This document shows positions 1,045-29,349 of a stretch of 29,349 nucleotides of DNA, in pieces (within the stretch, counting starts at the first letter, position 1; the number at the start of each line of letters is the position of its first letter). The stretch comes from Saprolegnia diclina VS20. Lineage: Eukaryota > Oomycota > Saprolegniomycetes > Saprolegniales > Saprolegniaceae. Location: assembly GCF_000281045.1 (NCBI RefSeq), contig NW_008246070.1, positions 987,089 to 1,016,437 on the forward strand, given 5' to 3'. The translations under genes and the position numbers were made by a program. The notes under the pieces are model-generated. The model was given only the letters and a program-made list of their open reading frames with translations. It made no database searches and was not told the DNA's origin.

Positions 1045-2255
1045 ATGACACACAATCAAATGCAAAGCGGTGACCCGAAGGACGCTACCAACCCGGCAAA
1101 GACCAAGCTGCGCCTCTACAACCGGTTCAAGCAGCGCGAGCACCGGTCGCTGCTCCGCTCCGAGACTTCGTACCTCCAACAAGCCATAGCCACGCTCCAC
1201 GCGCAGCTCCGCCAACTGCAGGCGCGGCCATCGACGTCCGCACTCTCGTGGCGAGACGTCGCCGCCGGGCTGCAGGCCGCCACCGCCGCGAGCCTCGACG
1301 AGCAAGCCGATCTCCAAGAGTTGCAGCGGCGGCAGCAGCACTTTCTCACAGCTATGACCCATTGGGTCGCAGGCCACAGCGTTCAGGTAGTGTCCATGTA
1401 CCTATAGCATCGTGGTCGTCCTACACGGTAGGTATCGTAGCGTGGGCTCTCGACGCAGTCTACGTGGCGTGACTTGTCCGTCTTGGCCGACCCCGCGACC
1501 CGATTTGCGAGTCTCGACTGGGTCAGTAAGAACCTGTATTACAACACGGACGCGGTCTTTGCCACGTTTGGCCTCTGCGGGCCGACCGCCAACATGCGCG
1601 ACCAGCGCGCGTTCAAGTACGAGGTGCTAGAGACGGGCACGATCCAGCTCACGTGGCACTACCATCTCTTCGTGGACAAGCCTCTCGATGACGTTGCGCC
1701 GCGCGTCAAGGCGCTCTTCTGGGCCCCGCGCATGGAAGGCCGCTTCACGCTCGAGCCGCCACCTGGCGTTGCTGTGCACTGTCTGGATGCAGAGGTAGAG
1801 CAAAACGATGTGTGGGGTTTCGTCATAGCGCTGTGGTAGATGCTGGCTACTACGGCGGTCGACATGGAGTACAAGCGAGTGCAGCGGGGCGGTCTCGAAC
1901 CGCTGAACGTGTTGGCGCGCGAGTTTAGAAGCTTGAACACCCGCACGCTGGTCGGCAGCTCGATTGCGTTCGACGAGGCGTGGCCACGCACGGCGCCTCT
2001 CCAGCGCCACTGCAAAGTCTGGTACACCGCCATTCGTTTCTATGATAGTCGACGGCTTAGCATCTGTGCAGGGTGCTCTGCGAACGACTGTCGCCAACGC
2101 AAACACAAGTGCGTATTTTGGCCATGTCCAGTGACGAGGCTGCGTCGACGCTGAGGCTCTCGGACGCCGAGACGGAGCGCATGGGCGCGCACATAGCCAA
2201 GCTCGGGGATGTCCTGCACGGCAACCTCGTTAATTTGGTCGTCGCCGATCAGTAA
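1045..2255 (+). CDS. M96 mating-specific/START-like protein with basic coiled-coil N-terminus
   Basis: Four exons give 347 residues: 1045-1386, 1459-1794, 1840-2021 and 2072-2255. The frame is preserved across all junctions; introns are 72, 45 and 50 bp. Residues about 18-60 are basic and then leucine/glutamine-rich, like a bZIP or coiled coil (KLRLYNRFKQREHR, then LQQAIATLHAQLRQL). After a Trp-Arg-Asp-Val-Ala block comes a roughly 230-residue C-terminal domain with the pattern of the large oomycete family annotated as M96 mating-specific or START-like. Visible hallmarks are SLDWVSKNLYYNTD, the TWHYHLFVDKPLDDV block, LNVLAREFRSLNTRTLVG and the WVLCERLSPTQT region. The START fold binds lipids in other families; function here is unknown. 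The intron 2 acceptor (1839) is the least certain junction. Start at the first in-frame ATG. Confidence 0.8.
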
Positions 2256-2292
2256 CGCATGTATGTGCTAGCATTTCTTAAGTTATATTCTC

Positions 2293-2520
2293 TCATGCTT
2301 CTTCGTCATCTTCATCTTCGCGGAGCTCGGGCAGTGCGTCGGCGTCAAAGATGATGCGAATCGTGAGCGAGCACGACGGGCAGCTCGCAATGTCTTCGCC
2401 GTCGTGGAGCTCGTCGAGGCCGATGAAGAACTTGTCACCGCAGGGACACGGGTAGTAGTACACCTGGTCGTCCTCGTTGAACTCCATGTCCTCGATCTCA
2501 ATCTCGTCGTAGACCGACAT
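2293..2520 (-). CDS. DPH3: Dph3, CSL-type zinc finger protein
   Basis: This single exon encodes 75 residues, the usual size for Dph3. It opens SVYDEIEIEDM and carries the CSL zinc-finger signature YPCPCGDKF, then GLDELHDGEDIASCPSCSL. The four zinc/iron ligands are Cys25, Cys27, Cys47 and Cys50. The tail is very acidic. Dph3 donates electrons to the Dph1-Dph2 iron-sulfur enzyme that starts diphthamide synthesis on elongation factor 2, and to Elongator-dependent tRNA wobble-uridine modification. In yeast it is recharged by the cytochrome b5 reductase Cbr1. An upstream in-frame ATG at 2607 would add 29 residues unlike the family, so I used 2520. The gene is divergent from the cytochrome b5 gene. 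Confidence 0.93.
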   Translation of the reverse strand: MSVYDEIEIEDMEFNEDDQVYYYPCPCGDKFFIGLDELHDGEDIASCPSCSLTIRIIFDADALPELREDEDDEEA

Positions 2521-2761
2521 GCTGCTTTGTCTTATCGTCGGCGTGGCGCTGATGGGCGTGATTGGCTGGTCGAAAGCGGCACCTGAATTAGATTCGGCAT
2601 GTGCCATGTAAAGGGAGGATTGGTGGAAATGCAATGGAAATGTGTCGAATCACAACGCGGCAAGAACGATCTTTTGTCAAAGGTCGCGGTGCATGCGCCA
2701 CGGCCGTGGCTTCAAGACCACGTTCGTCGACCACCTCCGCAAGCGACGACAGCTTGCCAAC
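2521..2761. promoter_or_regulatory. Shared promoter region of DPH3 and cytochrome b5
   Basis: This 241-bp interval separates the start codons of two divergent genes and must contain both promoters and 5' leaders. I see no clear TATA box. A second in-frame ATG for the cytochrome b5 gene lies inside it at 2693. Confidence 0.45.
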
Positions 2762-3169
2762 ATGAGCGAATTGCATGAATACACGGCCGCCGAGGTGCTT
2801 CGCCACGCCTCCACCGACGACTGCTGGCTCATCCTTGGCGACGACGGCCGCCAAAAGATCTACGACATCACGGCCTTCTTGGAGTCGCATCCGGGTGGGC
2901 CCGAAATCCTCATGGACCTTGCGGGCCAAGACGCCCACGAAGAGTTTAAAGAGGTTGGGCACTCCAAAGCTGCGCAGGACATGGTTGAGCAGCTCTGCAT
3001 TGGCCGGCTGCGCGTCGACGGCCGGCGCAAGGCCAAGCGCGGCCGCGTCGTCTTGCCCGTGGCCGTCGACGACGAAAAACGCCCGCGCCACGACCGACTG
3101 GTGGCGCTCATGATCCTTCTCATGGCGCTATGCTTTGGGTATTTGCTCGTGCCCAACACAGCGCTGTAA
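2762..3169 (+). CDS. Tail-anchored cytochrome b5
   Basis: A single exon of 135 residues. Residues 5-82 are the cytochrome b5 heme-binding domain: HEYTAAEV at the start, the HPGG motif with heme ligand His43, and second ligand His67 in EVGHS. A basic linker leads to one hydrophobic segment at about 113-130 (LVALMILLMALCFGYLL) with a five-residue tail, typical of a tail-anchored protein of the endoplasmic reticulum or outer mitochondrial membrane. Cytochrome b5 passes electrons from NADH-cytochrome b5 reductase to desaturases, hydroxylases and P450s. I chose the ATG at 2762. The ATG at 2693 would add 23 very basic residues that could act as a targeting peptide and should be kept as an alternative. 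It is head to head with DPH3. Confidence 0.93.
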   Translation: MSELHEYTAAEVLRHASTDDCWLILGDDGRQKIYDITAFLESHPGGPEILMDLAGQDAHEEFKEVGHSKAAQDMVEQLCIGRLRVDGRRKAKRGRVVLPVAVDDEKRPRHDRLVALMILLMALCFGYLLVPNTAL

Positions 3170-3237
3170 TCCACAAAATAGTTTATGCAAACCCGAGTTT
3201 AGAGATGACTACGTAGAATACATACTAGTTATTTGAG

Positions 3238-4680
3238 TTAATGTTGCAGTGAGGCGATCCATGCCTGCTTGCGCGTCGCAAAACCCGCGGGGCAGTACGG
3301 GAACGACGTCGGTGCATAGGTGGCCGGCGCCGACGAAAACAACTTGTACGTCGACGAGTTTTCGACAATGTTGGCGATCGCGTGGTACGTGCTGTAGCCG
3401 CCGAGGAGCGTCGTGACGACGATGACAGCGATGCACAGCATTTTATGGCGTTTGGACATGGTCGTGCGGAACATGGCGTAGTAAAAGACAAGCGGCAGAA
3501 TCACTGAGCAGAGGTTCATGACGGACGCGCCAATGAGGTCGGCAATGTCCGAGAACGAGCTCTGCGTGAGCATGGCGACAAAGCACTGGATGCCGACCAT
3601 ACTCGAGCGAAACACAATTCGGCGCAGGAATGCGACCCGCGTCGCCCGCACGTCGTCGACGGCACTCGCGTCATTGTCCGACGCGCCGTGCGTCGGCGTG
3701 CGCACTGCCGCAAACCCCGCTTCGGTCTTGTCGGCGTCGTCATTCTCGTTGGTGTCCGTCATCGCCACCTTGGCAAACCACGGGTCCCACTTGCGCTCAA
3801 AGTAGACAAAGAACGGGTTCATAAAGATCGCCAGCGCAATCATGACGTGCACTTGCATGCAGATGAACGCAATTCGCCGGCGCTCCGTCGTAGCCGACAT
3901 GGCGATCAAGAGGTTCCCAGGCGCCGCGCAGCCAAAGTGCGCGTACCCGACCGCACCGAGGGCCACGTAAAAGACGGAAATCAGCAACATGCCAAACACC
4001 ATCGTGCTCGGCATGCTCTCGGGGCGGGGGTGGTGGTTCTGCATCTGCGGCACGATCGTCGCGGCGCCGTACGCGAGCGCAAATGCGCCAAACGTGTTGA
4101 GAACGTTGGAGAAGCCGGGCGACGCCGTCGCTTCAAAAATGTCACCGCCGGGCGCCAAATACGCATCGACGGTCGCCATGGTATCGGCAATGATCGTCCC
4201 GAGCGCGCCCGCAACCAACACGGGGTACGCTTCGTGGAGCACGCGGATGTAGATGATCGGCAGCAGTACGAGCGTCATGAGCAAGATCCACCACGTCGAC
4301 GAAATGTCGATCGCGCCGTCGAAGATGGATGGAAGCAGCGTCGCGCCGCCGAGGACGAGGAACGCGATCGGAAGTAGAAAGCAAGACGCGAGCTGCGTGC
4401 CTTGGACGAGGACAGCGCCGGTTTTGCCAAAGAGGTAGAACCCGAGGTCGACGTACGTCTGGACTTTGGGCTCGTCCTTGAGCGCGAGGAGGCACTGGCA
4501 GAGCGCGACGGTCGCATATGTGTTGAAGAAGAAGTTGAGCAGAAAGGTGATGCACGACAAGACGGCGCCGGATTCGGCAAAGATGTGGGGCATCGAGAGC
4601 GACCCGATGCCGCAGAGGCAGCAAATGAGCTGCACGATGACGCCGATGTCGTAGCGCTGCGGCGCGTACCATTCAATCAT
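3238..4680 (-). CDS. Amino acid/auxin permease family transporter (AAAP, SLC36/38-like)
   Basis: This intronless 480-residue protein has about eleven hydrophobic segments. The first helix carries the family pattern GIGSLSMPHIFAESG, close to the GxGxLxxPxAxxxxG signature of amino acid permeases. Later segments include TWWILLMTLVLLPIIYI, an AFALAYGAA segment like the conserved substrate-site helix, and IADLIGASVMNLCSVILPLVFY near the end. A hydrophilic loop rich in Asp, Asn and Thr (about residues 300-345) lies between predicted helices 8 and 9. The protein should import or export amino acids across the plasma, vacuolar or lysosome-like membrane. Substrate cannot be told from sequence. The start is the first ATG and keeps a short cytosolic N-terminus. 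Confidence 0.88.
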   Translation of the reverse strand: MIEWYAPQRYDIGVIVQLICCLCGIGSLSMPHIFAESGAVLSCITFLLNFFFNTYATVALCQCLLALKDEPKVQTYVDLGFYLFGKTGAVLVQGTQLASCFLLPIAFLVLGGATLLPSIFDGAIDISSTWWILLMTLVLLPIIYIRVLHEAYPVLVAGALGTIIADTMATVDAYLAPGGDIFEATASPGFSNVLNTFGAFALAYGAATIVPQMQNHHPRPESMPSTMVFGMLLISVFYVALGAVGYAHFGCAAPGNLLIAMSATTERRRIAFICMQVHVMIALAIFMNPFFVYFERKWDPWFAKVAMTDTNENDDADKTEAGFAAVRTPTHGASDNDASAVDDVRATRVAFLRRIVFRSSMVGIQCFVAMLTQSSFSDIADLIGASVMNLCSVILPLVFYYAMFRTTMSKRHKMLCIAVIVVTTLLGGYSTYHAIANIVENSSTYKLFSSAPATYAPTSFPYCPAGFATRKQAWIASLQH

Positions 4681-5394
4681 ATTGCTTTTGGACGAACGAG
4701 GAAATTGGGGAATGAGCTCGTGGAAAAGTGTTTTTCAAACGGGACAGACGGCAAAAGGGCGTGTCCCACGTGCACGCGTGCTTTCTGGCTGCGTTTGCTG
4801 TGCATCCCACTGAGGCGAGCGAGGCACACTTGAAGTTGGTCGCTCCATGGATGCGCCGTTATAGGTTACGAAGGGTGCATAGTAGCACTGAAATTGCCGT
4901 TTGGACGACGTCGTGACCGGCTTGCATCCGATATCTGGGTGCTCGCACGTTTTGCGTACAAGGCGACACCTCGAGTCGCGTGTTGCAAGGACCCTTTGAA
5001 AGGGCCAGCAGGCGCGACTTTGCAGGGACCATCCCCGGAGATGGATCGGCTTGGTCTTCAGTCCCAAGCCATCGCCATTGGAATCTTCCCGCTGATAAAA
5101 TAAGCAGTTGGAACGATGATTTTTGGGACGTTGCACTTTTTTGCAGCCTTGTGCAAAGGCGCGCGCGTTGAAGTTGACGGGACAGGCGACTCTGGCGCAT
5201 TAAGATTTGGAAAGATCGCAGACGGGCGCAAAGCCGCGGCAATTCCTTTCAATCGCCAATATTCATATTCGATCGTAGTGGTGAGCTTATCGCAGCGGTG
5301 GGATCTGCACGGCGACGTCGTTGTCCAGATGCGCTGACCACAAGTAGACAAACCCAAAATTTGAAAAACCAAGGAGCAGATTCGTTTGCGTGGT
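4681..5394. other. Intergenic stretch, no gene recognised
   Basis: Overlapping open frames of 60-140 codons lie on both strands (minus 5058-5489, plus 5116-5337), but none has a recognisable domain and none clearly shows the codon bias of nearby exons. The left side should contain the promoter of the minus-strand transporter. The right side is the 3' flank of the sorting receptor gene. Confidence 0.45.
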
Positions 5395-12661: not shown

Positions 12662-13190
12662 CTTCTTTCACTCGCTTCAGCATCGTCTACAGCGCATAAG
12701 TAAGTGCAGTCAACTTGAACGAAACGGCAGTTGCCGCCCACCAAGTCTGAGTCCATCCATCAGCTTTTCATTACCTTACATGTTCACCCGTTGAGTATAA
12801 ACCTGGCAAGGTCTTCCCATGTAATATAGCCTAAAAGTCGTAGAAGCGGACCTCTACGTCAATCCGCTTGGCTAGGGAGCCTCCAATCTCAGCATTAGAG
12901 CCTCCGCTCTCAGCACGAGATGCGTACTACCACCATGTTTTCTCAATGAATCTCTGCTTGGACAGTGGTGCGGCGAGACACCCGTTTGCAGCTCTTTGGG
13001 GCGGAAGGTTCCTGAGAAGGCTGTCCGCAATGCTACGTTCTCCATCGAAGCGCACCTCACCTTATGTGAACGTTCCTCCTTATTTGCGGCACATGCCACG
13101 GATAAAACACGAAATTAGTGTGCGACTATCTTTTTCGAGCCAACGGCAAATTGCCACAGTCGCGCCAGTGCCCAGTCCCAAGAAGCAACC

Positions 13191-14282
13191 ATGGCGCTCA
13201 TCACGACGTACGTCTCGATGTGGACGGCCGCGCTGCTCGACTACTCGGCGCAGTGGTTCCCCGCGCCGGCGGTGCCAGCGCCGCCAGCCCCGCTGCCAAA
13301 CGCGTCGATGGCGCTCGACATGCTGTGCATGTGTCGGTCGTTTGCGACGCCCCAGTCGCACCTCGCTGACCAACTGAACCAAACGCAGTGCGCAGGCCTG
13401 GGCTTTGCCAACCGGTGGACGGTCGATACCAACATGTCGCACCTCTCGCCGTTGGCACCGCCCGTCTTTGTCGACGGCCACGAGCTCATACTCGGTGGCA
13501 CGCTGCGCGCGATGGTCTTTACGAGCTCCGAGACGGATGAAATGGTGCTTGCGTTTCGGCACCAAGAAGGCGACGGGCTACTGGACAGCGAGCTCTGGGA
13601 AGCCATGGGCCTCTTTGGGCGCAACTTTGTGCAGCTGAGCGCGCCCTCGATGCTGACGTACGGCTCGCTGCTCGACTATGCGAGCCGGTACATCCAGTAC
13701 CTCATCTTTGGCACACGCCACCTGCTCGGCGCCGACTTTGTACCGCTAGCGATTGCGTTTACAACCGAGATGCGCCGCACGTACCCGCACCACTCGCTGC
13801 ACTTTACTGGCTACTCACTCGGCGGCGCGATTGCGCAGCTGGCGGCGATTCGCTTTGACATGCATGCCACGACGTTTGCTGCGAATGGCATCTTGGACCT
13901 TCTCCACTTGTACCAATTACAGCCCTCGGGCTCGGTGCGCACGCTGGTCAACTATGCCCACGCCAACGATTTCGTCCCGAAAATGGACTGCCAGATTGGC
14001 ACGCTCGTGCTCGATCCCACGACCGGTGGCTCGGACGACCCGGACGCGACGCACAAGGCATTTGTGTACGGGCCCACAGCTTGGAACATGCTGCATTCGC
14101 CGCTCACAGCAACGCCGGGCCGGCTCTACAGCCAAGACCACGGGTACTGCATTGACAATGCTTTTGCCCATGCACCTGGCGCGGCGTCGGTCCTCGACGG
14201 CACCTTGCAGCGTCTCACGGCGCATCTCGTGTCGACGATGCTGGTTGCCTGCGTTGCCTGGTGGGTCGTGCGCCGCATGTAA
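13191..14282 (+). CDS. Class 3 (fungal-type) lipase with C-terminal membrane anchor
   Basis: An intronless gene of 363 residues starting in a good context (accATGG). An N-terminal hydrophobic region (about 1-22) may be a signal peptide. The alpha/beta-hydrolase core contains the nucleophile elbow GYSLGG with catalytic Ser209. The likely acid is Asp260 in HANDFVPKMD and the likely base is His317 in DHGYC, so the Ser-Asp-His triad is complete. Before the elbow, LHFTGYSLGG follows the usual beta strand. A hydrophobic segment at about 342-360 and a short basic end (RRM) suggest a C-terminal anchor with the catalytic domain in the lumen or outside. Expected reaction: hydrolysis of acylglycerols or phospholipids. 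It ends 69 bp from the calnexin stop codon, on the opposite strand. Confidence 0.88.
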   Translation: MALITTYVSMWTAALLDYSAQWFPAPAVPAPPAPLPNASMALDMLCMCRSFATPQSHLADQLNQTQCAGLGFANRWTVDTNMSHLSPLAPPVFVDGHELILGGTLRAMVFTSSETDEMVLAFRHQEGDGLLDSELWEAMGLFGRNFVQLSAPSMLTYGSLLDYASRYIQYLIFGTRHLLGADFVPLAIAFTTEMRRTYPHHSLHFTGYSLGGAIAQLAAIRFDMHATTFAANGILDLLHLYQLQPSGSVRTLVNYAHANDFVPKMDCQIGTLVLDPTTGGSDDPDATHKAFVYGPTAWNMLHSPLTATPGRLYSQDHGYCIDNAFAHAPGAASVLDGTLQRLTAHLVSTMLVACVAWWVVRRM

Positions 14283-14351: not shown

Positions 14352-15992
14352 TTACGCTTGCTGGGTCGTGCTCGGCCGGCGCTGGCGAAGGCCTTCAGTG
14401 TCTGGCGGCACGGGGGCGTCCGTAGCGTCTTTGGCGGGCTTGGCATCGAGGTGCACAACCTCGGTCTCGTCGTCGACTCGGATATCTGGCGTCTCCTTCT
14501 CGGCTTGCTCGTGGCGGAGCTCGTCGGCCCAGTCTTGGCGCAGCCCGCGCACGAACGCCAGGAGGAGCAGTGCAAAGATGGTGCCCACCGCCGACATGAG
14601 CGGGTACGTTTGGACGTACTCGGCCCCACGGGTCGCGTAACCTTTGGCGATCTCGTAGTACGTAGGCTCGTACTTCTTGCGCGCCGGTCGCTCCTTGGGC
14701 TTGGGCGCCGGCTCCATCTCGATGGCGAGCTCTTCGGCCTTTTGCTTGGGCGCCCACGTCTCGCGCGCAAAGTCAAAGGCGTCCTGAAGGTCGTGACCGA
14801 GCCAAAGGTTGTCGATCTGAATGTTGGTGGCCATGCTCCAGACCTCGAGCGCCACGGCGCTACGACACATCATGAGTGTCAAAGGTACTTGGCCATTGCC
14901 TACCCGATCGGCTCCATGCGCGCCGGGTGCGCATCTTCGTAGTAGTCGGGGTTGGGGATCTTTCGGGGCTCCCACTCCCCCAAGTAGTCGGGATTTTCGA
15001 TCATCGGAGGCGTCCACTTGCCTCGGTACGCCGGGTTTGACATCATCGATTGCTACGAGATTCCCATGTTGAAGGACAAGTTGACCATTGTGCATTGGAC
15101 GTACCTTCCACGGTCCCTTTTCCGCCTCGTCCCAGTCGTCGGGCTGGGTGATCTTGGGGTTGGGAATGGTCTTGGGCGCGTCATCGTCCCAGTCTTCTGG
15201 CTTTTGTGCCGCGGGGTCCGGAATGAACTCGGTTTCTTCGTACGTCGAGGGGCGGACGTCGGACGGGTCATCAATTTCCTTTGGCGGGTTGACCGCCGGC
15301 TTGAAATGCGTGAGAAGACTGCCCTTCTTGATCGCGACCAAGTCGGCGTACACCTCGAACGAGTTGTCATCATGGACGGCGAGCGTGTACACGTGGCTCA
15401 GCTTGTCTTCGGTCTTTGCGGGCGGCGAGATCTCGAGATGCTTCTCTTCATACATGTGCGTCAGTGGGTTCTTGTGGTTGAAGATAAAATGCACTTTGTT
15501 GGTCTTGTCGCACCGGTCGGGCCCAAACATGATGCTGAACGGAGACTTTTCATCGAGCGATTCGAGGTCGGCGGGTTCGCGGAGGAGCTTGAGGTAGCTG
15601 CCGGCGCAGTTGACGCCGTCACGGTACTTGACTTCGTACTGCACGATGAGAGCGCTCTTGGTCTCATCCAGCTGGAATGACGACGGAAGCTTGGCGCCAA
15701 AGCCGTAGTGCTGGGCTTTCGCCTCCATCAAAAGTGCCTTGTCCTGCGCAAAAGTGCCGAGGAGGCGCGGGCCTTCCTGCACAGACACCTTTTGCTCGCG
15801 GTATTTCTTGTGGCGGCTCTTGACCCACACCGAGTTCTCGTCAAAGAGCGTCGAGTTCTGGAACGTCTCGGCCCAGAACGCCTTGCTCGTCGACGGGACT
15901 CCAAACGCCGACAGGCTTGGCACGACGTCGCCTTCGGCGGACGCAAGGGCCAGCGCGATCGCTGTCGTGAGGTAGGCGACAGAGCGGACCAT
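14352..15992 (-). CDS. CNX: Calnexin
   Basis: Three exons on minus: 15992-15105, 15052-14904 and 14859-14352, with introns of 52 and 44 bp, giving 514 residues. A signal peptide (about 1-19) leads to the legume-lectin-like domain ([30 protein letters not shown]). The P-domain has two type-1 motifs ([21 protein letters not shown]). Three type-2 motifs follow ([17 protein letters not shown] and IPNPDYYED), two of them in exon 2. Then come [19 protein letters not shown], a transmembrane helix ([19 protein letters not shown]) and an acidic/basic cytosolic tail. Calnexin is the ER lectin chaperone for monoglucosylated glycoproteins. Both introns lack stops and their lengths sum to a multiple of three, so the unspliced locus is one open frame, which is misleading: only the spliced form restores the P-domain. 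Confidence 0.95.
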
Positions 15993-16908
15993 CGAGCTTG
16001 AGGGAAGGATCTGTGCGCCAGGAAACTAAATGCACTCTGACTGCCTTTCTGGCGAAACCGGACCGAAACCGAGGACCCTCTCATTATGAATATACTGTGC
16101 AAATGGGTTCCATGTAATCCACTGTATCAAGTATATATTCTGAATCTTGGATATCAAAACATTATTTCCTGTTAGAATGAATATCTCTGTGGTGTGCGGT
16201 CGAAACATCGAAGTTTAGTCCCGCGACGAGGCGCCGGTTCACAACCTCCAAAAGCGCGGCCCTTGGCGCTTACGGCTGCTGTGCTCGTAAACGTGCGGCT
16301 TGTTGATGCAATTAAGGGAAGATAATTGCACTGGTTTGCTGCAGTCGACGCTGGGATACCATGTCAGCGAATCATTCTTCCGTTCACGCTCCCGTGGGTC
16401 TCAAGGAAGCTCCCTATTCACTTTGGAAATGCGGTGATTTGAAACGCAGCAATCTTGTCTTTGGCACCATGTTGCTGTCGGACCTGCGATTGGCCCACAC
16501 AAAATCACAGAGCCCAACGCAGGGCAGTGTGCTCGAGCGAACTTGCTTGAGCGAGCTAGTTGTAAGTTGGCTGCCCAGTTGAAGCCGAAGAAAATATACG
16601 ATTGCAGGACGCAGCTGCGCCTGGACACAGTACTGTCGAGTCCCACTGACTGACCTCTGTTCAGTGAAAATTCGGCCGAGTAGCCTTCTCGGGTGTATCG
16701 TAGGAGCTCCAAGTCCTGGCGTCGTCTTGTGCAGCGACGCACACCTTGGTGATGGTGCGTTGAGAGACAGCGAACACATCGGCACCAACCGGCGCGCAGG
16801 AGCCGGCGGCGGTTGGCGATCTTGTCCTGTCTTTGGCGCGATGCCATTGGTTAAGAATGTAGGTCACTGGGACAGGCCCAACGGCGGTGCCAGTTGGCAG
16901 AGTGAGCG
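15993..16908. other. Intergenic stretch between divergent calnexin and glycosyltransferase genes
   Basis: About 0.9 kb holding both promoters. I looked for an ER-stress element (CCAAT-N9-CCACG) near the calnexin start and did not see one. Short frames such as plus 16361-16582 and minus 16401-16847 have no recognisable content. The part at 16080-16200 is AT-rich. Confidence 0.5.
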
Positions 16909-18258
16909 ATGGAGAGCAAGCGCATCGCGATCGTCTCGATCGGGTCCCGCGGCGACGTGCAGCCGTACTGCGTGCTCGGGCGCGCGCTCGCGGACCGCGG
17001 CCATAAGGTCGTCATCGCCGCCGAGCAGCGCCTTGAGAGCCTCGTCGTCGACGAGTTCCGGCTGCCGTACCGGCGCATCGTGGGCGACTCGACTGGCGGC
17101 CTCTTTGACCCCAAGTTCCAAGCCGGGCTCGCGAAAGGCTCGATCGTCGCGATCATGAAGATGACAAAAGAGTGGAAGGGCAAGTACAAGATGGACGACA
17201 TTCTTGCATCGTATGTGACCGCACTCGAAGGCGCCGACGTCATTGTGTCGGGCGGGCTCTGCCTCGCCATGTCGTACGCGGTTGCCGAGAAGCTCGACGC
17301 GGCATGGGTGCCGTTCATTCTCGGGCCCACATGTCCCACGACCGAGTTTCCTGTGTGGGCGCTGAGTGGCCTCGCCTGTGGCCTGCGCTGCCTCAACAAG
17401 TGGACGTACAATGTGCTCTTCAAGCAGCTCTGGAAGGACGAGCAGGTCTACATCAACCCATGGCGTACCCAAGTCTTGGAGCTGCCCCCGATCACGATGC
17501 CCCTTGGTATGCTCGATGTCATCAACACCAACGAGCGCATCCGAGTTCTTATCGGGTGCTCGGCGCTCTTTTGCGGCCCCAAGGCGCGCATCCCAAGCGA
17601 CTATGACCCGCGCAAGATCCATCTGCTTGGCCCTATCTTTGCTGCGCCGTCGCCGCTCCCCGAGACAGCAACCAGCTTTCTCAACGCCGCGCGGGCGGCT
17701 GGCACGCCCATCATCTACTTGGGCTTTGGTAGCATGCCGACCGCCAACCCGATGGGGCTGTTGCGCCTCGCGATCGATGTCTGCGAGCGCGTCGGGTGCC
17801 GCGCGATCGTCGTCGCTGGCTGGTCGGCGCTCACGTCGGACGAGGCCGACGCGCTCCTCACGGCCAACCAAACGCGGCTCTTGGTGCTGCCGTCGATCTC
17901 GCACGGAGCCCTCTTTCCAAAGGTCGACTGCATCGTGCACCACGCCGGCATTGGCACGTGCAACGCGTCCCTCATCAGTGGGACGCCGCAAGTGCCGTGC
18001 CCTGTGCTATTGGACCAACCGCACAATGCAAAAGTCCTCGTGCGACTCGGTGTCGCGCCGTGCGCACTGCCGTTCGGGAAGCTTGCGGCTCCCGGGTTGG
18101 CCCGCGCCGTTCAAGACATATTGACGAATGCCAAGGATATCCAAGCCCGCGCCACGGCGATTGGCATCAGCCTTCGGGACGAATGCGCCAACGCGCTGGC
18201 ACAGTACATGCAGCTCATCACGACGGCCGAGTCGCTGAACGCCGCTGCGTCCTCGTAG
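16909..18258 (+). CDS. Family 1 glycosyltransferase, sterol glucosyltransferase-like
   Basis: An intronless gene of 449 residues with the two-lobed GT-B layout. The N-terminal signature IGSRGDVQPY (11-20) is typical of sterol 3-beta-glucosyltransferases and related GT1 enzymes. The C-terminal lobe has IIYLGFGSM (268-276) and the nucleotide-sugar motif: HGALFPKVDCIVHHAGIGT (332-350), then PCPVLLDQPHNAKV with Asp369-Gln370. The conserved HHxGxGT is intact. Likely reaction: transfer of glucose from UDP-glucose to a sterol or other lipophilic acceptor. Fungal sterol glucosyltransferases have N-terminal PH and GRAM domains; none is present, so this is the single-domain form. The acceptor cannot be told from sequence. 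ATG at 16909 is first in frame and directly precedes the signature. Confidence 0.88.
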   Translation: MESKRIAIVSIGSRGDVQPYCVLGRALADRGHKVVIAAEQRLESLVVDEFRLPYRRIVGDSTGGLFDPKFQAGLAKGSIVAIMKMTKEWKGKYKMDDILASYVTALEGADVIVSGGLCLAMSYAVAEKLDAAWVPFILGPTCPTTEFPVWALSGLACGLRCLNKWTYNVLFKQLWKDEQVYINPWRTQVLELPPITMPLGMLDVINTNERIRVLIGCSALFCGPKARIPSDYDPRKIHLLGPIFAAPSPLPETATSFLNAARAAGTPIIYLGFGSMPTANPMGLLRLAIDVCERVGCRAIVVAGWSALTSDEADALLTANQTRLLVLPSISHGALFPKVDCIVHHAGIGTCNASLISGTPQVPCPVLLDQPHNAKVLVRLGVAPCALPFGKLAAPGLARAVQDILTNAKDIQARATAIGISLRDECANALAQYMQLITTAESLNAAASS

Positions 18259-19996: not shown

Positions 19997-20172
19997 ATCG
20001 CCTTCTCCACCGCGTAAAGGCGTCTAGCTTCAGTGCGAGCACTCTGCATGCATCACGATGCATTTTGTAGAAAACAGTGTAATATACAGCAACTTGAGAC
20101 AGTGTCTGTTGTGAATACGCTGGCTTCAAACACTGTCTTGCACGCTTCGTCTTGTATCCGGACCGAGCCGCG

Positions 20173-21109
20173 ATGTGGGCGCTGGACGAGACAGCGCTGG
20201 ACCTCGTACAGCGAACGTGGTACGACGCGCCTTTCCGCTGTGGTATCGACGTCGTCGACGCCGTCTTCCCCGATGGCATCCCATCGCGCGCCGTCTTGGA
20301 GCTCTACGGCGACGCGGCGAGTCCGCGCAGCCTGATGCTCCAGCACCTCGTCGCGACCTTTCTCCTCCAACAGCCGAATGGCCGCGTCTACTACTTTGAT
20401 CACGAGTGCCATCTCGACGCGGTCGAGATGCGCTGCATTCTCGAGGGCTACGCCGCGCACGACGAAGCGGCGGTCGTCAGCGCCATGCAGCGCCTCGAGC
20501 TCTTTCACGCTCCGTCGACCGCGGTATTTTCCGCCGAGCTGCGCAAGGTGCATGACGAGCTGCTCGCCGCCAAGACACGCCCAGCCAGCGTTCTTTTGGC
20601 CGTCGACGCCATTAGCTCGTTCCACTTGATCGACAAGGCCACGGCGCTCCGCGTCGGCGAGGGCGTCGCGCCCATCAGCGCCATCTACGCGCAGCTCAAG
20701 GAGTTTGCCCGCACGCACTCTGCGTTTCTGTTTGCGACCAAAGCAAGTACGTCCTCAAAGTCGATATTGTCTTTCAGAGAGGATACAATAGACGAGGTGG
20801 GCAAAGGCTGGGGCCACTCCGAGTACATGCCAAGTGTCTGGTCGTCCCTCGTCACCAAGCGGCTCTACTTACGGTATCTGTCCTCTTGGTATACTTTCCG
20901 AGTGGAAATCTCCATCACAAAAGGACACGGACGTCGCCAGGGACGGCGTTTCCATCCCCCGATCAGTCGTCGTTCCAACTGCGCCATTTTGCAAACGGCG
21001 AAGCGTCCGACGCCCACTGACATGCGCAGCTCACATTGTCTGTAGGCGCATTCTGCCCTTTGGCCTCGAGAACCATCGGCTTGTCTTGCTTGGTCCGTCG
21101 CAAGCATGA
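20173..21109 (+). CDS. XRCC2: XRCC2-like RAD51 paralog
   Basis: Four exons: 20173-20746, 20792-20873, 20924-21004 and 21046-21109, giving 266 residues (human XRCC2 is 280). Introns are 45, 50 and 41 bp. The N-terminal half follows the XRCC2 pattern: CGIDVVDAVFPDGIPSRAVL, LELYGDAASPRSLMLQHLV at the ATP-loop position, RVYYFDHECHLD, then the Walker B-like SVLLAVDAISSFHLID (139-154). The C-terminal part has YMPSVWSSLVTKRLYL and ends ENHRLVLLGPSQA. XRCC2 with RAD51D forms part of the BCDX2 complex that helps RAD51 in homologous recombination. Residues 46-53 (GDAASPRS) lack the Gly-Lys-Thr of Walker A. Intron 1 is 45 bp without a stop, so reading through it stays in frame. The last intron has a weak donor (GTCCGA). 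Confidence 0.8.
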
Positions 21110-26774: not shown

Positions 26775-29283
26775 TTATTGCACGCCATTGGTCGCAACAA
26801 ACTGCGAAAAGAGCTGCGTTTTCACAAACACTTGGTAGAACGCCGCGTCCGTCCCGTCCCGGTGCTTGAGAAACCCGACGTTGTCAAAGACGACCATGCT
26901 GTCGACCTCGTCCGAGAGCGGGAAGCTAAACTCTTCCATGTCGGCCATCATGTCGGTCCACGTCTCGCGGAAGAGTGCTCGGACCGCGTCCTGCGGAAAC
27001 GGTCGCGGCGTCGGCGGCGCCAGTGTGTCGGCAAACGCCACACTCGGCATCCAGAGCTCGGCGAGTTTGGCCGCGAGGCCGTGCCGCACGGCGGGAGGCA
27101 GCTCCATGGGCGCGTTGGCCACCTCGTGCGTATCCAAGTGCACGAGCACAACGTCGTCTTCGTCGTCCGAGGTTTTCAAGAGCGCATGCACCGAGTCGAG
27201 CTGCGAGGCGTGGACGCCAAAGAGGTACGGCGTCGGGCAGTGAAGGCACTCGAGCATACCGGGCGGCAAGAGCGGTGCGTACACATGGGGCCATTGCAGC
27301 GGCGCGAGGAGCGATTTACAGGCCTCCGCGACCGTCGTGAGCACCGAGACGTGCGACGAGACGAGCACGATCTTGCGCTCGAGCAAGAGGCTCGCAAACA
27401 GTCGTAAGATCGCATCGATGTGCAGGCACAAAAAGAGCGGCTGCATCGAAAAGTCGACCGCGTGGCTCACCGGGAACGGCGCCGGCGTCGACGGCACCGG
27501 AGCGGTCAGTGCGGCGACATGGCGGCTGCTCCACGCAAAGTCAAGGTCGTTGTAGCTCGGGTCCGTGAGCACATCGTCGTGCAATGTTGTGAGGCGGCGC
27601 CGCAGCGTCTCAAAGAGCGGGTACCGACTCAGAACGCAGATCCCCGCGGCGACGTAGACGCGAAGACTCTTTTGTTCAAGAAGCACGGCCTCGAGCGGGC
27701 TCAAGTACTCGGACGCCGTCACGGGCACGTAGCGCGTGAGGCACACCATGTAGAACGGCCGCTCGGTGCTGCCCACGACAACGTGCACCAGCGACGGCGG
27801 CGGCGGTGACGTTGACCGAATTGTGGCCGCCGACGGGCACAGAAAGCTCTCCAAGTGGTCGGGCAGTGTGTGGTGGTGTGCCACCGACTCGTCTTGCGGG
27901 TAGACGTTGGCGAGCGCGTAGAGGACCGTTTGGTTGAACCGGCCGCGCGTCGCGAGGTTGCTCGCAAAGGAGAGGACGCCCGAGATGCAGTGCGGCGCGC
28001 CGCCGACCTTGTGCAGCGCAAACGACGTTAAGCGCGGTCGCTGCGGCTGGTGCGAGATGACGTTCATACAGTGGAAGAGCTCTGGTAAGCTCGTCGTGCT
28101 CGAGTCGGACGACGACCCGGAGCTGCTTCCGTGGCTGCTGCGCGACTCTTTGAGCGTAGCCACCGCGAGGGAGTTGTTGGACGGACTCAACAGGCGGTGC
28201 TGGAACGACTGCAGCATCGACTGGAACGACTTGGACTGGAGAAACCGCACAAAGTGGTTCATCTGGAGGTCATCCTTGACATAGCACAGGATCGAGCGCA
28301 GCGTGAGGCCTGCTTGCTGCACTTGGGTCGCACTCAAGAGCGTATCGAGCGACCACGAACCAATGTGGTGCTCAAGCACGTCAAAGAGCGACCGCTCGCC
28401 TTCGCAGAGCACGTGGACTTCGGCGGTGGCATGCGGTGCCATGTACTTCTTCCACAGCACCCTTCCCAGGTGCACGATGGCCCGCGAGTGGTCAATGTCG
28501 AGGCGGCTGCTGCTACTGCCATCGATACTGCGGCGGGACGCATCGTCGTCGTTGTCGTTGGCACCACCGCCCTGAAGGTACTCGTCCATGAGCGGTAGAA
28601 GCCGCATCGTCGCCTCCATCCAGAAACTCAGCGGACCGTGGCTGCGCTCCTTGAAGAGGAAGACCCAAAAGACGCAACAGAGACGGCGGTTGGAGAGCAC
28701 GCGCTCGAGCGTAAAGTTGGCCTTGGTGTGGTCGACCTCGACGTCGTGGAGGCTCGTTGCGACCGTCGTGTCGATCATCGAGACCTTGACTTGCAAGAGC
28801 GCGCGGCCCTCGGCCGTGAGCCGAAAGGCCTCGAGGCTCGGCTCCAAGGCGGCAACCACGGCCTTCTGAACATCCAGAAAGAGGTCGGCGTCGGAGCTCA
28901 AGCCCGAGCACATGCTCAGGTCGTTCTTGAGAAACGTGCCATAGGTGGCAATCGGCTGGTCCTGGACGCGAAATCTGTCGTCGCCAATGTGGAAGAACGA
29001 GTCGTCGCTCATGTACTTGGCGATGATCTTCTTGGCGTAGCTGCCGCGGAGGCTCGACGGACTGGTCGGACTCGCGGTCGGCGCGGCGCTAAAGAGCTTC
29101 TTGAACTCGTCGACGCTGACGCTATTCCATGGCGTTAGCCGCCCATCGCGTCCATGGCTCGACGTACAGGAAGAGGAGCCGCGAGAAGTTGACCGTGTCA
29201 TGCACCGAGAGGTACTTGAGGAAGACCGAGTGCATGTGCGGGTCATGCACGACCTCTTGGACCGTCAGGCCGTGCGATGGCAT
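26775..29283 (-). CDS. Double RGS domain plus tripartite DENN domain protein
   Basis: Two exons on minus, 29283-29168 and 29121-26775, with a 46-bp intron, give 820 residues. Residues about 5-145 look like an RGS domain: SVFLKYLSVHDTVNFSRLLF joined across the intron to LVSVDEFKKLF, then YAKKIIAKYM and DLFLDVQKAVVAAL. A second RGS-like unit spans about 176-344 (ERVLSNRRLCCVFWVFL, LSFWMEATMRL, WKKYMAP, then DDLQMNHFVRFLQSKSFQSM). After a Ser-rich linker comes a DENN module. The uDENN covers about 390-525. The cDENN (about 528-715) includes FLCLHIDAILRLFASLLLER, KIVLVSS and LLAPLQWPHVYAPLLPPGML. The dDENN follows at about 745-815. RGS domains speed GTP hydrolysis on G-alpha; DENN domains are exchange factors for Rab GTPases. 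ATG 29283 is the first in frame; an upstream exon outside the window is possible. Confidence 0.85.
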
Positions 29284-29349
29284 GCTGCGTCGGCGGCTGA
29301 AACCAAAATGCAAGCCAACCACGGACAGGATTTTGACCAATCACAGCGC

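Follow-up and report, generated by a model that had tools for sequence, protein, structure and literature searches.

The window analysed here is a stretch of 29,349 nucleotides from Saprolegnia diclina VS20 (contig NW_008246070.1, positions 987,089 to 1,016,437 of the forward strand), and near its end lies a gene on the minus strand that joins two RGS-like domains to a DENN module. After removal of a 46-bp intron, the gene (29283-26775) is translated into a protein of 820 residues with a sole stop at the end, in which the domain order is RGS, RGS, longin/uDENN, cDENN, dDENN. The original prediction, made from the sequence alone, had proposed two RGS-like domains and a complete DENN module in one gene; Pfam, fold comparison and profile controls agree with it. 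The features are as follows.

29168..29283, minus strand: exon 1, with the start codon (ATG at 29283) and the first part of RGS-homology (RH) domain 1 (residues 1-38 plus two bases)
29122..29167, minus strand: 46-bp GT-AG intron (GTACGT...AATAG), interrupting RH domain 1
26775..29121, minus strand: exon 2, including the stop codon
28791..29271 (span including the intron), minus strand: RH domain 1, residues 5-149
28203..28712, minus strand: RH domain 2, residues 176-345, with a low-complexity insert
27669..27998, minus strand: longin/uDENN part, about residues 414-523, from model strands and the DENND1B alignment
27126..27650, minus strand: cDENN, residues 530-704 (Pfam DENN, 1.8e-34)
26796..26888, minus strand: dDENN, residues 784-814 (Pfam dDENN, 28.5 bits)

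In the Pfam search of the spliced protein, the DENN family (cDENN) scored 119.7 bits (cut-off 23.4) and dDENN exceeded its cut-off of 26.8. The RGS family scored 35.2 bits (cut-off 23.9, E 1.8e-8) with both stretches summed, and the two stretches, the better at 177-340, were seen at a lax E limit of 10. In the orthologue P0001, each RGS stretch alone fails E 0.001 and the sum passes; thus, independent support was sought. When eight RGS domains (four human and four from the S. diclina genome) were compared by profile, the first RGS domain gave E 3.6e-6 and the second 4.2e-7, against 0.16 and 0.065 with reversed profiles and 0.022 and 0.017 with the best of 30 column-shuffled profiles. Fold comparison of the modelled S. 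parasitica orthologue found the RGS helical bundle at 1-148 and 175-351, in agreement with the RGS matches predicted at residues 5-145 and 176-344. The nearest fold to the second RGS domain was SNX13, where families absent from the comparison list are not counted as excluded.

The DENN module had been predicted to consist of uDENN, cDENN and dDENN. The latter two stand by Pfam, whereas the uDENN profile scored 12.9 bits, under its cut-off of 22.3. This part is nevertheless covered by the fold modelled for the S. parasitica orthologue: a longin fold precedes cDENN (strands 420-507), and DENND1B (3tw8_C, chain residues 10-367) aligns to 416-791 of the orthologue. The modelled module resembles the Rab35 exchange factors DENND1A/1B. 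Neither a DH-PH pair nor a PX domain gave a Pfam match up to E 10 in the spliced protein, and an NCBIfam search gave nothing useful.

The first RGS domain depends on the intron, as had been foreseen. Without splicing, the reading frame closes after 53 residues, and the unspliced frame gives RGS only 23.5 bits, slightly under the cut-off; the splice contributes 11.7 bits. When donors 60-169 bases after the ATG and intron lengths of 38-119 were tried, 18 GT-AG alternatives kept the frame open, and the conserved junction LLFL-VSV arose from the 46-bp choice alone, which bears out the proposal that this intron joins the two halves of an RGS domain. The junction is uninterrupted in 19 of the 28 aligned relatives. 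The Aphanomyces astaci model P0006 has 11 additional residues precisely at the junction, an insert that reads as a retained intron, and the models P0021-P0023 start at the junction or just past it; together these suggest that the intron position in the relatives is the same as 29167-29122. P0024 and P0026 have a brief unrelated leader followed by VSVDEFK, P0025 starts further in, and P0028 and P0029 diverge in the junction region. From the junction pattern among the 28 relatives, the 46-bp intron is probably old, as judged from their protein models. The S. parasitica orthologue model begins at the same methionine. A run of N, possibly an assembly gap, starts directly beyond the window end at 29349 (L022:3939 upward), 66 bases upstream of the ATG; further upstream exons are therefore possible.

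We searched the S. diclina genome (54 Mb, 169 contigs) for related genes. The paralogue P0034 on contig C2, identical to SDRG_00729, is intronless, reads letter for letter as one open frame and has the same domain order (Pfam RGS, 51.1 bits); thus, the fusion itself does not depend on an intron. DENN was found at 11 places, ten by Pfam and one by profile (C3:1162 kb), and RGS-like sequence lies beside it at four: the window gene, C2, C64 and C3:1162 kb. The C64 gene (L020, G000:C64:116500-122500, 1174-3694, plus strand) is a third gene of RGS-RGS-DENN-like type; it has diverged and contains additional introns. Pfam detects its DENN and no RGS, while the profiles match the first RGS domain in two consecutive frames (2.7e-5 and 0.014), the second at 4.1e-10 and DENN at 1.4e-30. 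A possible fourth member, split over several frames, lies at C3:1162 kb (L037, G000:C3:1160500-1168000, 1218-3997, plus strand), with one Pfam RGS of 27.6 bits and a DENN piece of 23.4 bits, exactly the cut-off. In their draft models, both look like further genes of the RGS-RGS-DENN type. Near the other seven DENN places (5.5-9 kb each, frames of at least 30 residues), no RGS profile matched to E 0.5. A single clear G-alpha gene is present in the genome, and six weaker matches were under the cut-off. Separately, a dense cluster of RGS matches occupies 6 kb on both strands at G000:C76:191418-197037, and three more lie at C38:380040-381435.

Three protein searches were made, which were not exhaustive, as about 8,000 candidates were scored in each and shared words were required. 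Near-full-length relatives came from Saprolegnia, Achlya, Thraustotheca, Aphanomyces, Phytophthora, Pythium, Lagenidium, downy mildews and Albugo, and from entries without an organism name. None was found in these searches outside the oomycetes and such unnamed entries, and animal and fungal matches spanned at most 27% of the query. This agrees with the original remark, which knew of no such architecture in animals, plants or fungi, and the relatives across the oomycetes supply the same order in other stramenopiles, for which that prediction had proposed a search. Subfamily 1, to which the window gene belongs, was aligned from 28 of 33 matches (P0027 and four fish proteins were omitted), and subfamily 2, that of the paralogue, from 30 of 81. 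At Pfam E 0.001, DENN was detected in 28/28, RGS in 19/28, dDENN in 18/28 and uDENN in 9/28 members of subfamily 1; both DENN and RGS were detected in all 30 of subfamily 2. Against PDB sequences, the subfamily 1 profile found DENND1A/1B and one chance match, with no RGS chain, and the subfamily 2 profile hit RGS12 (1.2e-4). In Albugo, the protein P0117 scores 18.8 bits for RGS. On these sequences, the architecture is conserved in oomycetes from Saprolegniales to Phytophthora, with a sub-cut-off RGS in Albugo. Up to E 1, Pfam finds no RGS in two distant full-length relatives, P0028 and P0029, but both of their RGS domains are matched by subfamily 1 profiles from which their rows had been removed.

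The profiles of the two subfamilies are collinear over 740 columns (E 1.6e-55). Across subfamilies, the first RGS domain matches the first (E 1.7e-6) and the second matches the second (3.1e-6), while the four other pairings gave 0.0013 to 0.32. From this correspondence and the collinear match, the RGS tandem probably predates the duplication into subfamilies 1 and 2. In a cDENN tree, from which three of 41 domain pieces (under 120 residues) had been dropped, the side holding both subfamilies and the distant pair also holds the C64 gene and fish SBF2 (89/82), and subfamily 1 is held together only at 64/0. For one origin of the fusion, the collinear profile match is better evidence than this tree. 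The fusion is already present in databases as many entries with both Pfam domains; in the open-access literature, we found no paper on an RGS-DENN fusion, and such a protein is unmentioned in the available parts of PMC6033456, PMC3307776 and PMC3521125.

Other long frames in the window were read by eye, with no family search run: transporter-like at 3238-4734 (minus), lipase-like at 13119-14282 (plus), calnexin-like at 14352-16025 (minus), glycosyltransferase-like at 16906-18258 (plus) and RecA-like at 20098-21045 (plus).

Whether the RGS domains could act on G-alpha was considered from the contacts of the RGS4 type, Asn88, Asn128 and Asp163. At these positions, P0001 (the reference) has Arg, Arg and Pro in the first RGS domain and Pro, His and Asn in the second; the paralogue has Val, Ser and Glu, and Glu, Gln and Ser, respectively, so that none of the four tandem domains carries the Asn88/Asn128/Asp163 set of an RGS4-type GTPase-activating protein (GAP) for G-alpha. 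In the alignments, Asn is absent from the N88 column (five of 28 rows of the first domain are gapped), Asn occurs at the N128 column in one of 28 rows of the second domain, and Asp is absent from the D163 column in all rows. The equivalent of R167 is retained in the second domain in 26/28 rows of subfamily 1 and 29/30 of subfamily 2; D163-R167 of this domain was positioned by eye on its xxRF motif. With the RGS4-type contacts replaced at these columns, it seems less likely that the domains act as GAPs on G-alpha.

Sequence or model shows how the exons are arranged, that the RH-RH-longin-cDENN-dDENN order is conserved, and that the RGS4 contacts are substituted at the aligned positions. On this basis we tentatively favour, at somewhat under even chances, an oomycete DENN exchange factor, likely for Rab, that is positioned by two non-catalytic RH docking domains. 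The DENN module would load GTP onto a Rab, and the RH pair would dock on a GTPase and thereby place or release the exchange factor at one membrane. Our first choice for the RH partner would be a Rab, because Rab4 and Rab11 are reportedly bound by the two tandem RGS domains of D-AKAP2/AKAP10 (PMC4920182, in part); the protein would then form one step of a Rab cascade. The second choice would be the one clear G-alpha, by analogy with the RGS-RhoGEFs. SNX13 and SNX14 are both reported to associate with Rab9A (PMC8864675, in part).

Several observations weigh against non-catalytic docking by the RH pair. The placement is uncertain for N128 of the first domain, N88 of the first domain of the paralogue and D163 of the second domain; one column off, Asn is found beside N88 in 2/30 rows of the paralogue's first domain, and alternative N128 columns have Asn in 1/28 rows (first domain) and 2/30 (first domain, paralogue). 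Among six other RGS domains of the genome, L002 and L003 keep all five RGS4 residues, L005 keeps three, L007 two, and L001 and L006 none, L001 being the top Pfam RGS in the genome (78.3 bits). As only two of the six keep all five, the loss of contacts is weak evidence; such losses are common in this genome and may be compatible with a G-alpha role. RH domains without RGS4-type contacts can bind G-alpha. Loops that face G-alpha show somewhat higher conservation than the remaining sequence (random P 0.09, 0.003, 0.016 and 0.038, uncorrected). Conservation by domain gives no discrimination, as the mean entropy is 1.13 in the first RGS domain and 1.30 in the second, as compared with 1.10, 1.14 and 1.23 in the DENN parts and 1.23 in the linker. 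Conservation of the RH pair was dropped as evidence of selection because the linker scores equally well. Moreover, the earliest description of SNX13 was as a G-alpha-s GAP, SNX14 is reported to bind G-alpha-s with no GAP effect, and Avl9, a DENN protein, is reported as a GAP (PMC8864675 and PMC12803157, each in part).

A clearly weaker possibility is that the protein is a G-alpha effector resembling the RGS-RhoGEFs, in which active G-alpha would bind an RH domain and recruit or free the DENN guanine nucleotide exchange factor (GEF) for Rab, forming a wire from receptor to traffic. Besides the substituted contacts, its fold, which is no nearer to the RGS-RhoGEFs than to other RGS domains, speaks against it. 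The proposed link between G-protein signalling and membrane traffic is partly supported: the presence of RGS and DENN in one protein stands, while the RGS4-type contacts, whose loss counts for little, are replaced. That the lone G-alpha directly controls Rab activation in oomycetes, through the tandem RH module that a few related DENN exchange factors carry, is more doubtful still; if true, receptor and vesicle traffic would be wired through one protein, for which no description was found in the open-access literature.

It is unlikely that the protein is a bifunctional enzyme, an RGS GAP on G-alpha and a DENN GEF on Rab, in view of the aligned columns without Asn at N88 or Asp at D163 and with one Asn at N128, and of L002 and L003, which keep all five residues in the same genome. 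We gave this alternative more weight because the other four of the six RGS domains lack some or all RGS4 residues, so that the RGS4 rule may misfit oomycete partners; two RGS folds with Pfam RGS above the cut-off, the R167 equivalent kept in the second domain of both subfamilies, and the history of SNX13 as a GAP also favour it.

That the DENN module is a GAP of the Avl9/DENND6 type is rather improbable, and we infer a RabGEF. Avl9 and DENND6A are reported as GAPs whose hallmark is an arginine lying between the fourth and fifth longin strands (PMC12803157, a 2026 preprint, in part), and the protein gives a weak Pfam Avl9 match (17.3 bits, cut-off 22). In the beta4-beta5 loop, located from the P0001 model strands alone, position 495 is Lys in 19, Arg in 7, Ser in 1 and Asn in 1 of 28 rows, and subfamily 2 has Arg at another position, 576, in 22/30; at the positions checked, the arginine is invariant in neither subfamily. 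The cDENN core 619-679 (picked by eye) has a mean entropy of 0.59, below the domain averages, which also argues against it. Hardly credible is a gene-model artefact, for, although the first RGS domain depends on a predicted intron and the N run lies directly upstream of the window end, two separate genes are ruled out by the intronless paralogue of the same order together with the conserved junction, and a chance RGS match by the far weaker reversed and shuffled profile controls.

Under the docking reading that we favour, RGS folds would be shown to be reused as docking parts. With two such genes in this genome, and perhaps four, and with relatives across the oomycetes, which include pathogens of fish and plants, a connection of signalling to membrane traffic would become directly testable in a single polypeptide.

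Rho exchange factors that carry RH domains are known, and we found no report in the open-access literature of such a domain on a Rab exchange factor. The RGS-RhoGEFs (p115-RhoGEF, PDZ-RhoGEF and LARG) share an N-terminal RH domain on a small-GTPase exchange factor; however, they combine a single RH domain with a DH-PH RhoGEF, whereas the S. diclina gene has two RH domains and a DENN module. DENND1A/1B have DENN at the protein N terminus and no known RGS. D-AKAP2/AKAP10 and fly Pkaap share two tandem RGS domains, tied there to membrane traffic, but have a PKA-binding site, and the available part of the source (PMC4920182) describes no DENN module. The SNX-RGS proteins SNX13, SNX14 and SNX25 have one RGS amid PXA, PX and PXC (PMC8864675, in part), unlike the S. 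diclina protein with its lack of a PX match. The fusion is a variant of a known theme, in which a GTPase exchange factor carries an RGS-homology module; in this case the exchange factor is DENN and its GTPase probably a Rab.
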